DNA of 32,276 nucleotides from NCBI GenBank assembly GCA_013298545.1, contig JAAFIA010000055.1, forward strand, positions 1-32,276. The letters run 5' to 3'. Shown here piece after piece: positions 61-29,346 of this stretch. Source of the DNA: Bacteroidota bacterium. Its GTDB lineage: Bacteria > Bacteroidota > Bacteroidia > Palsa-965. The notes beneath the pieces are model-generated. The model ran no database searches. It saw only the letters and a list, made by a program, of their open reading frames with translations, and was not told where the DNA came from. Numbering within the stretch: the first letter of the stretch is position 1; each line of letters begins with the position of its first letter. A program made the position numbers and the translations under genes.

Positions 61-666
61 TTAGTGGCCGGTTGTGGTTGGGGGAGCGGGTGGGGCGGGG
101 GGAAGTTCCGATTTAAAGGTTTTCAGAAAATCTTCAAAACTCATTTCTTTTTCCTTGCCTTCGCCATAATAGTGCATGTAGGGTTCAAATTTATCTGCCG
201 GCTGGTAGCCTTGCATGATGGTAAACTGCGTCCGTGTTTTGTCAATGAATACAAACGATGGGTAACTCAATCGACCTTGCAAGGCTTGAATCGCGAAATC
301 ATTGGCCGAACGCTGATTGGCACCGCCACGGTTGGTGAATTGCTGTCCATTAAAAATGACCGTATCGCGGGTTTCGGCATCGAATTTTACGCAGTAAAAA
401 TGCTCGTTCATGTATTTGGCAATGGTTGGATTGGCAAACGTATTCGCATCCATTACTTTGCACCAACCGCACCAAGACGTGTACATATCAACAAACAATT
501 TGCGTGGTTCTTTATCACTCAAGGCTTGCGCTTCTTCGAGTGTGTACCAATGAATGGGCGATGTCGTTTCGCCTTTGGTCAGTACAATTTCTTTTTGCCA
601 GCTAAATGCCGAAAAACCAAGGGCAAGAAGCAAAACGCCAGATACGAGGAGCAGATTTTTTTTCAT
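61..666 (-). CDS. exported thioredoxin-fold protein (DUF255/thioredoxin-like)
   Basis: A 201-residue protein with an N-terminal hydrophobic signal segment (about residues 4-20, after MKKN), so it should act in the periplasm or at the membrane. A thioredoxin-like domain follows, with the redox motif WCGWCK (Cys66 and Cys69) preceded by KLFVDMYTS, and a later YPSFVFID segment that resembles the cis-Pro strand of thioredoxin folds. The C-terminus is a short proline-rich tail (PPAPPAPPTTTGH). I chose the ATG at 666 because it gives a normal signal peptide; an in-frame ATG at 708 would add 14 unlikely residues. The likely role is disulfide reduction or isomerisation of exported proteins; the substrate is unknown. 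The W-C-G-W-C-K form is typical of thioredoxin_7/DUF255-type proteins rather than classical TrxA (WCGPC). Confidence 0.85.
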   Translation of the reverse strand: MKKNLLLVSGVLLLALGFSAFSWQKEIVLTKGETTSPIHWYTLEEAQALSDKEPRKLFVDMYTSWCGWCKVMDANTFANPTIAKYMNEHFYCVKFDAETRDTVIFNGQQFTNRGGANQRSANDFAIQALQGRLSYPSFVFIDKTRTQFTIMQGYQPADKFEPYMHYYGEGKEKEMSFEDFLKTFKSELPPAPPAPPTTTGH

Positions 667-767
667 GTCAGATCGAATGATCGGTTTTGAATAACCGAAT
701 TTTAACATAGACGTGCAAAGTTACGAAAAATCGTATGCACAGCATTGTCAAACGAAGTGCCAAGCTC

Positions 768-1502
768 TTATCGTAACATAAGTTGTGATAAAAATTCTTC
801 TTTGTATTGGTCGCCAATAGGAATACGATTTGTGCCAATCATCACATAATTGGATCCAACAGAGACAAGGTGTTTTTTAGAGATGATGAATGATCGGTGA
901 ATGCGCAGAAAATCGGAGCTGAGCGCGGTTAACTCTTGTTCAAACTTAGATAAGGCGATTAAAGGCGAATACGTTTTGTTGTTGGTGGCAACAACTTTGG
1001 TGTAGTTTTTCATGGCTTCGCAATAGAGAATGTCTTGGGTTTGCACAGCATATTTTTCGCCATTTGATTTCACATAAAGAACCGATTCAGGTTTTTGTTC
1101 AGTAGGCGAAAGACTCAATAATGCTGCCGCCCGCAAACGCTCAGTAGCTTTAAAAACCGCTTTGGTAAAGCGTTCAAATAAAAATGGTTTCAATAAATAA
1201 TCGGCTACGTTGATGTCGTAGCTTTCCAAGGCAAATTCAGAATAAGCCGTTGTAAAAATAATTTGTGGCTGCCGCGAAAGAATTTTTACCATCGCCGTTC
1301 CGCTGATGTTGGGCATGTTGATATCGAGAAAAACGATTTCGATGGTTTCGTCGCTATTGATTTGATCAATGGCTTCAAACGCATTTTTGCATTCGCCCGC
1401 GAGTTCGAGTTTGGGCAATTGCGCAATGTAGTTTTTGACAATTTTCCGAGCTATGGGTTCATCATCGACAACCAAGCAGCGGTATTTTTTCAACGTATTC
1501 AT
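768..1502 (-). CDS. LytTR-family DNA-binding response regulator
   Basis: A 244-residue regulator. The receiver domain (about 7-125) shows the acidic pair Asp13-Asp14, the phospho-acceptor Asp60 in VFLDINMPN, and the Lys of YLLKPF. The C-terminal part (about 140-244) is a LytTR DNA-binding domain, recognisable from LYVKSNGEKYAV, the ILYCEAMKNYTKV segment and FLRIHRSFIISKKHL. Its start overlaps the end of the upstream histidine kinase gene by 4 bases (ATGA-type overlap), so the two are translationally coupled. LytTR proteins bind pairs of 9-bp direct repeats; a fitting pair lies just upstream of the kinase at 2623-2650, suggesting autoregulation. The physiological target cannot be named from sequence. 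Confidence 0.93.
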   Translation of the reverse strand: MNTLKKYRCLVVDDEPIARKIVKNYIAQLPKLELAGECKNAFEAIDQINSDETIEIVFLDINMPNISGTAMVKILSRQPQIIFTTAYSEFALESYDINVADYLLKPFLFERFTKAVFKATERLRAAALLSLSPTEQKPESVLYVKSNGEKYAVQTQDILYCEAMKNYTKVVATNNKTYSPLIALSKFEQELTALSSDFLRIHRSFIISKKHLVSVGSNYVMIGTNRIPIGDQYKEEFLSQLMLR

Positions 1503-2572
1503 TCGGTTGCAGTAAAATTGATTTGCAGCAAGACACGAAATTCATTTTCTTTTTTCTCAATCTGTAATTCGTGTTGTGTGCCTGGATAAAATGCATTCAG
1601 TCGTTTGCGCGCATTTTCAAGCCCAATACCATTGGCTCGGAAATTTTGTAGGCTGTCGTCTTTCAAACAATTGTTGCGCACTTCAAACAAGAGTGTGTTC
1701 GTCGCACTTACAGCAAGGCGAATGCGGATGCGGATGACTTCTTCCTTTACATTTTTAGCATGTTTAAACGCATTCTCTACAAATACAACCAACATTAGCG
1801 GAATGATTTGAATCTGACTTGTTTCATCCACGTCAACCGTAAATTCAAAATCGAGTGTGTCTTCAAGTCGGATTTTTTCTAGCTCAACATAATTTTTCAA
1901 ATACTTGACTTCATTGACGAGTGGTACCGTTGGGCTGTTGGTTTCGTAAAGCGAATAGCGTAAAAGCTCGGAAAGACCAACCATCAACGCGGGTAATTTT
2001 TTGGATTGCTCAACGGCAAGCCCGTAAAAATTATTCATGGTATTGAATAAAAAGTGCGGCGAAATTTGTGCTTTTAAATGTTGCAGTTCGGTAATGAGTT
2101 GTAGATTTTTCTTTTCGCGTTCGTAGTATTGTTTGATGAAATTGTCTTTAAAATACTTGCACATTGATACGAGAATGAATAAGACCAAGTACGTGGGCAA
2201 TTGATTCCAATAAATATCCGACCAAGCTGTTTCGGCAATTTCGGAGAGTGTTTGCAAGTATGTTTTTTGAAACGTAACAATGCCTGCAAGCAAACTAGCC
2301 CATGTCAATAAACCCACTGTGGCGTAAATCAAATAGCGGTTCTTGGCTATTAAACGGCGATAAAGCCAAATCGTAAAATAAACGCACGCCACAAACGGAA
2401 TGCGTGTGATGAGCATAAATTCTAAATACTTAACATCGTAATACGCAATGGTGATGTAATAATTTCGATACTGAAAGAGCGCATACGCCAACCAAAATAA
2501 AACATGCCAAAGCCAACGTTTGTTGACGAGCAATTCGGTTACATTTTGAAAATTGGAAAAGGGATGTTTCAT
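1499..2572 (-). CDS. LytS-like sensor histidine kinase (His_kinase family)
   Basis: A 357-residue membrane kinase. The N-terminal half (about residues 18-145) carries several hydrophobic segments, consistent with four membrane helices. The cytoplasmic part contains the His_kinase motif LKAQISPHFLFNTMNN with phospho-acceptor His173, followed by an ATPase region with the N-box VVFVENAFKHA and the glycine motif NGIGLENARKRL. No separate sensor domain (PAS, HAMP or large periplasmic loop) is visible, so the signal is probably sensed in or near the membrane. It overlaps the LytTR regulator gene by 4 bases and is first in the operon. A plausible promoter (2586-2616) and a repeat pair resembling a LytTR site lie directly upstream. 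Confidence 0.92.
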   Translation of the reverse strand: MKHPFSNFQNVTELLVNKRWLWHVLFWLAYALFQYRNYYITIAYYDVKYLEFMLITRIPFVACVYFTIWLYRRLIAKNRYLIYATVGLLTWASLLAGIVTFQKTYLQTLSEIAETAWSDIYWNQLPTYLVLFILVSMCKYFKDNFIKQYYEREKKNLQLITELQHLKAQISPHFLFNTMNNFYGLAVEQSKKLPALMVGLSELLRYSLYETNSPTVPLVNEVKYLKNYVELEKIRLEDTLDFEFTVDVDETSQIQIIPLMLVVFVENAFKHAKNVKEEVIRIRIRLAVSATNTLLFEVRNNCLKDDSLQNFRANGIGLENARKRLNAFYPGTQHELQIEKKENEFRVLLQINFTATE

Positions 2573-2585
2573 GCAATAGACGATG

Positions 2586-2616
2586 CAAAGATTATGTGAT
2601 TCGCTGATTTATCAAA
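2586..2616 (-). promoter_or_regulatory. candidate promoter of the LytS/LytTR operon
   Basis: On the minus strand TTTG (2616-2613) is followed after 19 bases by AATCTTTG (2593-2586). This is one mismatch from the Bacteroidota -7 box TAnnTTTG, with the usual 19-nt spacing from the -33 TTG. The start codon is 13 bases downstream, implying a very short leader. Inference from pattern only. Confidence 0.4.
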
Positions 2617-2622
2617 CAGACA

Positions 2623-2650
2623 AGGACGAAAAGCCAATAATCAGGACGAA
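2623..2650 (-). promoter_or_regulatory. candidate LytTR operator: two direct repeats
   Basis: The octamer TTCGTCCT (minus strand) occurs twice, at 2650-2643 and 2630-2623, separated by exactly 12 bases. LytTR regulators are known to bind two 9-bp direct repeats spaced by 10-13 bases with a core like the CGT seen here. The site is immediately upstream of the -33 element of the kinase/LytTR operon, a position suited to autoactivation. A third copy, in the opposite orientation, lies at 2748-2755 facing the CHRD gene. Confidence 0.45.
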
Positions 2651-2896
2651 GGATTTATTGAGCATTCCTAAATGTACGCGAAATGCGGTCTTGTAGTTTT
2701 GAAAATGTTGCCTTAAACAACGCTTTTTATGCGCGCTGAATGGCTGCTTCGTCCTTGATTTTTAGTGTATGTCCACATATTTTACGGTTAGACAAAATAG
2801 ATTTTTTCTTTCATTTTGATTGAAGATGTTTGCTGTCGAAAATCAGCTATATGCCTTGATTTTAAAGCAATGATATAACCTTTAAACAACAACAAG

Positions 2897-4741
2897 ATGA
2901 AAAAAATGCTATTTACTTTTGCCACAATATTGTGGTGCGTGATTCAGGCGCAAGCCATCACATTCAGAGAAAATTTATTGTTCTCGGCCAAAATGGAAGG
3001 GGCACAAGTTGTTCCTGCTGTGGCCACAAACGCAAAAGGTATTGCAAGCCTCATGCTCAACAAAACGCGCGATTCTATCGCCGTTAATATGAGTTTCAAT
3101 GGCTTGAGCGGAATACCTACAAGCGTTTGGCTCTATCAAGGACCCGCTGGTTCGAATGGTGTGCAATTGATTGATTTGACGGCTTACCTCACCGGAAATC
3201 GTATTGCCATGCATTTGAACGGTGCATCGGTTTCAGGAAACATGGCCAATTTGTTTAAAGAGCAGATTTACGTGTTGGTCTCAACAGCGGCAAATCCTAC
3301 TGGCGAAATTCGTGGACAGGTTAAGCTCGAATCGGATTGGAATTTTGCGGCTGATTTGACAGGCCAAGAAGCCATTCCGGCGGTTTCTGGCAATGCGTAT
3401 GGATTGGGTTCATTCACGCTTTCGCTCGATAAAACAAAATTGTCGTACCGCATTATTTGTCAGAACCTGACAGGTTCAATTACTGGCGCGATGTTGCATT
3501 TTGGTGCAATTGGTCAAACAGGAACAATTGCCGATGATTTAACCGCATCGGTCAACGGCAATATTATTTCTGGAACACTTGTGCCAACAAGTATGCTGTT
3601 GGACAGTTTGTTTGCGCGAAAAATTTATTTGAACATTACAACAGCAGCCAATCCTACAGGCGAGTTGCGTTCGCAATTAATCACGTACAAAGGATTGACG
3701 TTTGAAGCGATGATTGATGGTGCACAGATGGTTCCGGCCATTGCTTCGCCCGGACAAGGTATTTCGCTCATTCGCCTCAGTCCAAGTATGGATACATTGT
3801 ACTACGATGCGGTGATGGACAACATCAATACGAATATCGACTACGCGCATTTGCATGTGGGCAATGCTGGATTTGCGTATGGTGCTTTGCAAGTTGATTT
3901 TACGTCAGATATTAACGGACATCGCATCAAAGGCATGAAAACCGGTTCGGGCGTATCGGCCAATACCATCAAGCGTTTGCTCATTAGCAACCTGACATTT
4001 ATTGTGCATACAGTAGCTTACCCCAATGGCGAAATTCGTGGTGCGGTGATTCGATATGCGCGCGAGGGTTTGACGATGAATTGTACGGGATCGCAAGTGG
4101 TTTCGCCAGTTGTTACATCAGCCTATGGTTCGGGTATTGTTTCTGTTGGAAGGGGCGATGACAATATTCATTACATGTGGGTTGTTGGTGGTTTGAGCAG
4201 TGTAGCTACGGGTGCGCATTTCAATCACAATATTGCAGGGCAGAATGGTCCAGTAATTTATGATATGAGTACACTTATGAGTGCGCAGAATGGCGATGCG
4301 TCTGCTTTTGGCTATTGGAAAAGCACCGATAGCAATCCGTTTTTGGTGAGTCATTCCAAACAATTCCAGACCGATAGTGTGTATCTCGAAATTACGAATG
4401 CGCTTTATCCCAATGGCGAATTGCGCGGGCAGGTGGTGAAAGGAACAATTTTTTACGCGCCAACATCAATCGTTGAATCCGCATCAGCACCGTTTAACGT
4501 ATCTGTTTATCCAGTTCCGGCACAAAACGAATTAACCATTCAGTATGCAACGAATAGCGCTCAAACGGTTCGCATAGAACTGACGGATATGCTGGGCAAA
4601 ACAATTTTTGTAAGCACTGTCGAACAAGCGTTAGGCATGCAGCAAATGCAAATGGATGTATCGGGATTAAAAGCGGGAATGTATATGGTGCGCATTATTG
4701 GCGCAACAAATGCAGAAACAGTAAAACTGATTAAAGAGTAG
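2897..4741 (+). CDS. T9SS-exported protein with four CHRD repeats
   Basis: A 614-residue secreted protein. A signal peptide ends near AQA (residue 20). Four successive repeats of roughly 115-120 residues follow (about 25-145, 146-265, 266-385 and 386-510). Each starts with a strand such as LTGQEAIPAV or IDGAQMVPAI and ends with a variant of ANPTGEIRGQV. This is the CHRD pattern, first described in chordin and common in bacterial extracellular proteins, where its function is poorly known. The fourth repeat is more divergent (SQVVSPVVTS in place of the AVPAV-like strand). The last 80 or so residues (VYPVPAQNELTIQY to TVKLIKE) form a type A T9SS sorting domain, so the protein should be released or anchored at the cell surface through that system. 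It is divergent from the LytTR operon and ends in a bidirectional terminator. Confidence 0.9.
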   Translation: MKKMLFTFATILWCVIQAQAITFRENLLFSAKMEGAQVVPAVATNAKGIASLMLNKTRDSIAVNMSFNGLSGIPTSVWLYQGPAGSNGVQLIDLTAYLTGNRIAMHLNGASVSGNMANLFKEQIYVLVSTAANPTGEIRGQVKLESDWNFAADLTGQEAIPAVSGNAYGLGSFTLSLDKTKLSYRIICQNLTGSITGAMLHFGAIGQTGTIADDLTASVNGNIISGTLVPTSMLLDSLFARKIYLNITTAANPTGELRSQLITYKGLTFEAMIDGAQMVPAIASPGQGISLIRLSPSMDTLYYDAVMDNINTNIDYAHLHVGNAGFAYGALQVDFTSDINGHRIKGMKTGSGVSANTIKRLLISNLTFIVHTVAYPNGEIRGAVIRYAREGLTMNCTGSQVVSPVVTSAYGSGIVSVGRGDDNIHYMWVVGGLSSVATGAHFNHNIAGQNGPVIYDMSTLMSAQNGDASAFGYWKSTDSNPFLVSHSKQFQTDSVYLEITNALYPNGELRGQVVKGTIFYAPTSIVESASAPFNVSVYPVPAQNELTIQYATNSAQTVRIELTDMLGKTIFVSTVEQALGMQQMQMDVSGLKAGMYMVRIIGATNAETVKLIKE

Positions 4742-28892: not shown

Positions 28893-29297
28893 TTACGACA
28901 ACTCGGTTGACAAAATCGGAGGACGAAAAACAGTTGCTGAAAAATTGAAACTGTACAAATTTTCAGATTGTACAGTATGTGTTTTATGGATGCAAGAAGG
29001 TGCTATTTTCAAATTTATAAAATCAGCAAGAGGTATGGCAAGCGAGGAATTTGTTTTATGCTGAAACGGTTTGTGCGGTTTTTGGTCGTCGTCATTGGTG
29101 TGTTTATCAAAAATACCATCTATGTTCATGAGGTGGTCTGTGATAAAATCCAACGCATTCATGTCTTGATCTTCGGTACTTTGACAAGTCTTGTAGTGTT
29201 TGTGCAATTCCGATAGCAACGAAAAATCAGCATGAGGCAACAAAATTGTGCCTAACACATAATAGCAAAGTAGAAAAATTAGACTTATTTGTTTCAT
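28893..29297 (-). CDS. small exported protein of unknown function
   Basis: A 134-residue protein starting MKQISLIFLLCYYVLGTILL, a signal or membrane-anchor sequence. The mature part is short and polar, with histidine- and aspartate-rich runs (DGIFDKHTNDDDQKPHKPF) that could bind metal ions, one CIHKTH segment, and a conserved-looking end YSFNFSATVFRPPIL. I do not recognise a named family. In Bacteroidota, short proteins of this kind often precede metal-efflux operons, but no such operon is seen here. The ATG at 29297 is chosen because it gives the cleaner signal sequence; an alternative at 29321 adds eight residues. Confidence 0.55.
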   Translation of the reverse strand: MKQISLIFLLCYYVLGTILLPHADFSLLSELHKHYKTCQSTEDQDMNALDFITDHLMNIDGIFDKHTNDDDQKPHKPFQHKTNSSLAIPLADFINLKIAPSCIHKTHTVQSENLYSFNFSATVFRPPILSTELS

Positions 29298-29346
29298 CTC
29301 GGATGCAAGACCATAACGCAATAACCCATGAAAGATACAAAAACAA

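Follow-up and report, generated by a model that had tools for sequence, protein, structure and literature searches.

Upstream of a sensor kinase–regulator operon in this Bacteroidia genome an octamer recurs in both orientations, and a gene for a CHRD protein with a type IX secretion (T9SS) sorting tail begins on the other side of the same intergenic region. We were curious to know whether these repeats are operators of the adjacent LytTR regulator and, if so, whether they would serve its own operon, the CHRD gene or both. The window, i.e., the whole stretch of 32,276 nucleotides that was analysed, is an entire contig of a genome of 4,533,363 bases.

The intergenic region and the kinase-facing repeats

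The locus comprises the following genes, as assigned by Pfam:

768-1502, minus strand: response regulator, Response_reg plus LytTR DNA-binding domain, 244 aa
1499-2572, minus strand: sensor histidine kinase, LytS-type His_kinase, 357 aa
2897-4741, plus strand: divergent gene, CHRD (four stretches) plus Por_Secre_tail (type IX secretion sorting tail), 614 aa

These matches uphold the gene assignments of the earlier note, which had named a LytS/LytTR operon and a T9SS CHRD gene from the sequence. The LytTR domain of the adjacent regulator is matched at 2.1e-13, and its residues FLRIHRS conform to the FhRhHRS motif given in PMC4227749. The kinase and regulator genes overlap by 4 bp, the region between the kinase and CHRD genes measures 324 bp, and the regulator gene is followed, after 60 bp, by a thioredoxin-like gene of the same orientation (61-708, minus strand). 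Rfam gave no match at gathering scores in 2400-3100, and the matches of a sigma-70 and terminator scan did not rise above those in shuffled sequence. Candidate promoter elements were read in the -33/-7 promoter form. For the -7 box, the form TAnnTTTG has been described (PMC9723704). The kinase-facing elements are:

2643-2650, minus strand: outer half-site TTCGTCCT
2623-2630, minus strand: inner half-site TTCGTCCT, 12-bp spacer to the outer half
2613-2616, minus strand: TTTG, candidate -33 element, offset 15 from the inner half-site
2586-2594, minus strand: TAATCTTTG, candidate -7 box, its TTTG (2589-2586) at offset 42 from the inner half-site

A direct pair of TTCGTCCT with a 12-base spacer had been noticed before the operon, and it was indeed recovered at 2650-2643 and 2630-2623 (minus strand). 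The 12-bp spacer corresponds to a 20-bp period, 8-mers with a spacer of 12 being the same as 9-mers with a spacer of 11, and the repeats end 6 bp before the TTTG of the candidate -33 element. With an adjacent LytTR regulator, a spacing of about two turns and a place upstream of their own predicted promoter, the kinase-facing repeats have the makings of a direct-repeat LytTR operator and are predicted to be one.

TTCGTCCT occurs four times in the window against 0.69 copies expected, a number reached in none of 100 shuffles, and the exact pair with N10-14 occurs a single time in the genome. When the 324-bp region was dinucleotide-shuffled 20,000 times, any exact 8-mer pair at a period of 19-22 arose 614 times (3%), and such a pair plus a third copy on either strand arose 44 times (0.2%); the pair alone is therefore not rare, but the triple is. 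The former figure favours the view that the octamers are chance repeats or sites of some other factor, unrelated to the LytTR protein, to which we return below with the regulator tree. The fourth copy of TTCGTCCT lies alone at 28920-28927 (minus strand), just inside an ORF at 28893-29321 (minus strand).

Probable operators of related kinase–regulator operons

A full-length CHRD match was found in none of 11 genomes of the same genus and family, and no kinase match exceeded 43% identity in the 15 genomes compared, which included the same genus and family, or 48% in 80 loci. CHRD relatives were present in three of 59 genomes (G041, G017 and G048; 33-43%), none of them beside a LytTR operon, and no CHRD gene stood beside the relatives' kinase–LytTR operons among the ORFs of the loci used. 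Since no close ortholog was found, footprinting was performed on more distant operons. Conservation of the octamers and their spacing upstream of relatives, which the earlier note had named as a check, was borne out in part: no relative held both genes, pairs did recur upstream of regulators 35-47% identical to that of the window, and their period was 21, not 20.

The five best regulators by blastp score (L038, L172, L173, L040 and L174) are 43-46% identical, and in all five operons a TTCGTC-like pair at period 21 precedes the start of the kinase gene by 82-105 bp. Their mean score of 10.0 out of 12 was reached by none of 59 permuted motifs and by 48 of 100,000 random sets of five operons, while the single scores of 9 (L173 and L040) are not striking alone. 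This test repeats, with the five closest by score, an earlier one on six rows that was biased, as L053 had joined the training set partly for carrying the motif.

When two families, of 150 and 151 genomes, were searched with profiles, a distinct regulator group emerged, from which 34 loci formed a held-out set; three of these, as well as three of 23 control loci, were dropped for want of a kinase–regulator pair, leaving 31 and 20 operons, respectively. In a scan with a PWM that counts the window's two half-sites among its 14, a kinase-facing pair scored 15 bits or more in 20 of the 31 held-out operons, invariably at period 21, compared with two of the 20 control LytTR operons, and an opposite-facing pair of at least 15 bits was present in 10 of 31 versus none of 20. 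In the deduplicated counts, from which L261 (same sequence as L038 of the training set) and L259 (91% like L174) were left out, the kinase-facing pair was retained in 15 of 26 operons (controls 2/20) and the opposite-facing pair in nine of 26 (controls 0/20); at a threshold of at least 10 bits, opposite-facing pairs were seen in 22 of 26 versus two of 20. A de novo tied two-block search in the 26 deduplicated held-out operons, run without the window, returned TTTCGTCAGC at period 21 with 7.80 bits; the eight other periods gave 4.62-6.10 bits, making 21 the most informative of the nine.

When the relatives' models were applied back to the window, a PWM lacking the window's half-sites scored the kinase-facing pair at 18.4 bits, compared with 13.5 for the best operon outside the group and the window. 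Two other models, window-free or nearly so, placed the pair first in the whole window, one of them being the de novo model (15.5; next 14.0). Counted from the inner half-site, 20 of 30 relatives have TTTG or TTTA at offset 42, as do 12 of 19 operons of the deduplicated held-out set, and the window has its TTTG at this very offset; at offset 14, TTTG or TTTA is found in 11 of 30, compared with the TTTG at offset 15 in the window.

How far such pairs extend was surveyed in the 77 operons that remained after deduplication at 60% regulator identity; a match to the window's regulator at 1e-30 or better is present in 249 of 395 genomes. In a first periodicity test, a 9-mer pair at period 21 occurred in 18 of 77 operons versus a mean of 2.9 at other periods, with 10.2 per 77 at period 21 in control regions that were overlapping ORF calls and had not been deduplicated. 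Counted by position within 200 bp upstream, the 77 operons held 23 pairs at period 21, seven at 20 and 0-6 at the others (15-27); elsewhere in the loci, periods 15, 18, 21, 24 and 27 were alike (110-125), which is codon periodicity. TTCGTC pairs at period 20-22 were carried by 10 of 76 operons (window excluded); the 59 permuted motifs averaged 2.2 and never exceeded 6. Among 41 kinase–LytTR operons from the window's own taxonomic family, periods 20-21 were not enriched, and degenerate pairs counted genome-wide showed no excess over controls (30 vs 60; 71 vs 86). A wider regulon in the window's own genome was considered and rejected: pairs with up to three mismatches were not above a reversed-pattern control, and the placed pairs with up to two (C46, C111, C122 and C141; L201-L208) overlap ORFs. 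A rule linking a T residue behind the NY in the first LytTR loop to a TTCGTC site held in five of 12 rows, two of which are the window itself, and is a lead only.

Divergent genes and the CHRD-facing site

In the six training operons, the gene on the divergent side encodes an outer membrane beta-barrel (OMP_b-brl_3), and a barrel gene adjoins the kinase in 19 of 20 further upstream stretches, L329 being the one without; three weak barrel matches were confirmed by Pfam, and L317, counted among the 20, is identical in locus to L038. In the window, the place of OMP_b-brl_3 is taken by CHRD plus Por_Secre_tail. On the divergent side of the relatives, on the opposite strand, TTTG is found at offset 63 (42 + 21) in 17 of 33 regions, drawn from the held-out and training operons, and at 42 in seven of 33. 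We read the TTTG at 63 as the mark of a third half-site, and which half-site is the inner one there is our own reading. The barrel-linked upstream regions L254-L290 often seem to contain three half-sites in 21-bp steps facing the barrel gene, with a -7 box 42 nt from the innermost. Judged by their upstream sequences, the regulators of the barrel-linked relatives very probably serve both directions, and two-directional control there makes the same reading natural for CHRD. Outside this clade, a Mucilaginibacter operon (L037, 4500-4660) has pairs facing both ways, with a beta-lactamase-fold protein and an M28 peptidase as divergent genes.

In a tree of 95 regulators, the barrel-linked group forms one clade (22 rows, 100/96), outside which the window's regulator joins L182 and L183 (98/90); the backbone of this tree is poorly settled and its bootstrap had not converged. 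Neither of these two neighbours has such a pair. The code that the window shares with the barrel-linked group is hence either old or regained. The separation of the window's regulator from the group with the matching motif speaks, like the shuffles above, for chance repeats or another factor's sites; yet the motif, the period class and the distance to the -7 box all recur before related LytTR operons, and we regard an origin unrelated to the LytTR protein as highly improbable.

The period also differs, being 20 in the window versus 21 in the barrel-linked relatives. In a paralogous kinase–LytTR operon of the same genome (L233, 2931-2960; G000:C63), the regulator gene and a YCII-domain gene flank a period-20 pair, GTTCGTCATC/GTTTGTCAGC, which hints that period 20 may be the form of this lineage; more GTC-rich copies come after this pair. 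Another kinase–LytTR operon of the genome (L126; G000:C35) carries the pair ATGAACCAA/ATGAACGAA, again at period 20; it lies at -79 relative to the start of the kinase gene, as far away as the pair in the window.

The third octamer had been described as a single opposite-orientation copy pointing to the CHRD gene. Its orientation stands, whereas a mismatch scan reveals it to be the outer half of a second pair, with a degenerate partner 20 bp on (TTCGTCCT-N12-TATGTCCA, 2748-2775, plus strand):

2748-2755, plus strand: outer half-site TTCGTCCT
2768-2775, plus strand: inner half-site TATGTCCA, 5/8 match, 12-bp spacer
2781-2784, plus strand: TTTA, candidate -33 element, offset 14 from the inner half-site, register read off the sequence
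2808-2812, plus strand: CTTTC, weak candidate -7 box, its TTTC at offset 42, one mismatch to the relatives' TTTG, register read off the sequence

Could the regulator act on the kinase-facing pair only, the third octamer and its poor partner being a chance or auxiliary site and CHRD being driven otherwise? The weak inner half-site fits this view, as roughly 4% of trials yield a partner as good as TATGTCCA at +20 or -20. Ranked by its half-sites only, the CHRD-facing site comes 11th in one model, with four of 74 other operons scoring as high, and about 25th in the pooled short list of the de novo model. The TTTC of its -7 candidate and the 95 bp between the two operators, which lie closer together in most relatives, point the same way. 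On the other hand, a 68-column operator-plus-promoter model built from 22 relatives and run over 128,828 positions puts the kinase-facing pair at the top (17.9), followed by the CHRD-facing site (2747, plus strand) in second place (13.3) and by a third position scoring 8.3, and this order is unchanged for 11 choices of the spacer column dropped to fit period 20. The rows of this model were chosen with a PWM containing the window's two half-sites, a mild circularity that the de novo search avoids. Simulating 40 stretches of 32 kb gave top scores of 12.2 on average and 17.8 at the highest, so that 13.3 is meaningful only within the 324-bp region, where it was reached on one strand in two of 3000 simulations. 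Relatives that carry the operator, moreover, have a divergent target. We therefore hold control of the kinase side only to be unlikely. The predicted strength of the CHRD-facing site lies in the exact outer half, in a spacer rich in T and in the register of the promoter elements (TTTA at 14, TTTC at 42).

Known LytTR systems and a possible mode of action

Direct repeats with 12-bp spacers and autoregulation are already known for LytTR regulators; here, the code is traced across many relatives. For the LytTR protein HdrR, direct repeats of 9 bp have been described, with gel shifts, upstream of -35; their spacers measure 12 bp, in some cases 11 or 13 (PMC6193735). As in the Streptococcus mutans LytTR Regulatory Systems (LRS) HdrRM and BrsRM, the window has direct repeats with such a spacer; there, the repeats lie 4-11 bp upstream of -35 and the regulator acts on its own operon and on other genes (PMC6193735). 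Unlike those systems, with half-sites ACCNCTTAN and a membrane inhibitor protein as the regulator's partner (PMC6193735), the window pairs its regulator with a His_kinase and is thus not an LRS, which is defined by regulator plus membrane inhibitor protein. AgrA of Staphylococcus aureus is likewise a LytTR response regulator with two direct repeats between divergent promoters, the inner repeats near -60, but it has another half-site, belongs to a quorum-sensing system and serves promoters P2/P3 with 18/20-bp spacers (PMC4227749). The AlgR site of Pseudomonas aeruginosa, CCGTTCGTC, contains the same TTCGTC core and occurs in both orientations at algD; these AlgR sites, however, are given as single entries, frequently distant from the promoter, and not as a 20-bp pair (PMC4064291). 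The barrel-linked kinase–LytTR operons of other Bacteroidia resemble the window in their TTNGTC half-sites, in the 42 nt that separate inner half-site and -7 box and, if the CHRD-facing site is one, in having pairs that face both ways; they differ in their period of 21, in the beta-barrel as divergent gene and in a regulator clade to which the window's protein does not belong. Our literature search, whose scope was outside subscription journals, found no study of such operators in this phylum.

We consider it probable, on the strength of these comparisons, that the repeats are operators of the adjacent LytTR regulator, which would act in positive autoregulation and in control of CHRD. The earlier proposal that the regulator may control both itself and CHRD is thereby backed strongly for the kinase-facing operator and moderately for the CHRD-facing one: predicted autoregulation is well supported, predicted CHRD control moderately. 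Following a putative signal, a dimer of the phosphorylated regulator would occupy both half-sites, each with one of its LytTR domains, on the same DNA face at a distance of two turns, and the dimer, bound just upstream of a -33/-7 promoter, would recruit RNA polymerase. At 2650-2623 this would activate the regulator's own kinase–regulator operon, and at 2748-2775, from a weaker site, the CHRD/T9SS gene, with whatever role the CHRD protein may have. For a -7 box spanning -12 to -5, transcription would be predicted to start near 2581 (minus strand) and 2817 (plus strand).

The same operators might instead be repressor sites, or a looped divergent switch in which the opposite pairs hold each other, rather than independent activator sites. 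The opposite-facing pairs are close together in most relatives and would allow contact between bound dimers; nonetheless, the pair lies upstream of the -33/-7 elements and not over them, and sites so placed serve activation by AgrA and HdrR (PMC4227749, PMC6193735). Repression or looping hence seems to us quite improbable, and activation from both sites is the reading that we carry forward.

A broader proposal, which we judge to be evenly poised, is that a module widespread in Bacteroidia, which co-switches the kinase–regulator operon and a divergent outer-surface gene, is governed by one LytTR operator code, namely T-N-N-G-T-C pairs at a distance of two turns whose inner half stands 42 nt from the -7 box. 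The surface gene would be exchangeable, a beta-barrel in most and a T9SS-exported CHRD protein here, while the two-sided operator would be kept or rebuilt. Kinase–LytTR operons are numerous in Bacteroidia, and if this is right, such sites would allow the targets of their regulators to be predicted from sequence, and the CHRD/T9SS protein would be tied to one signalling system.
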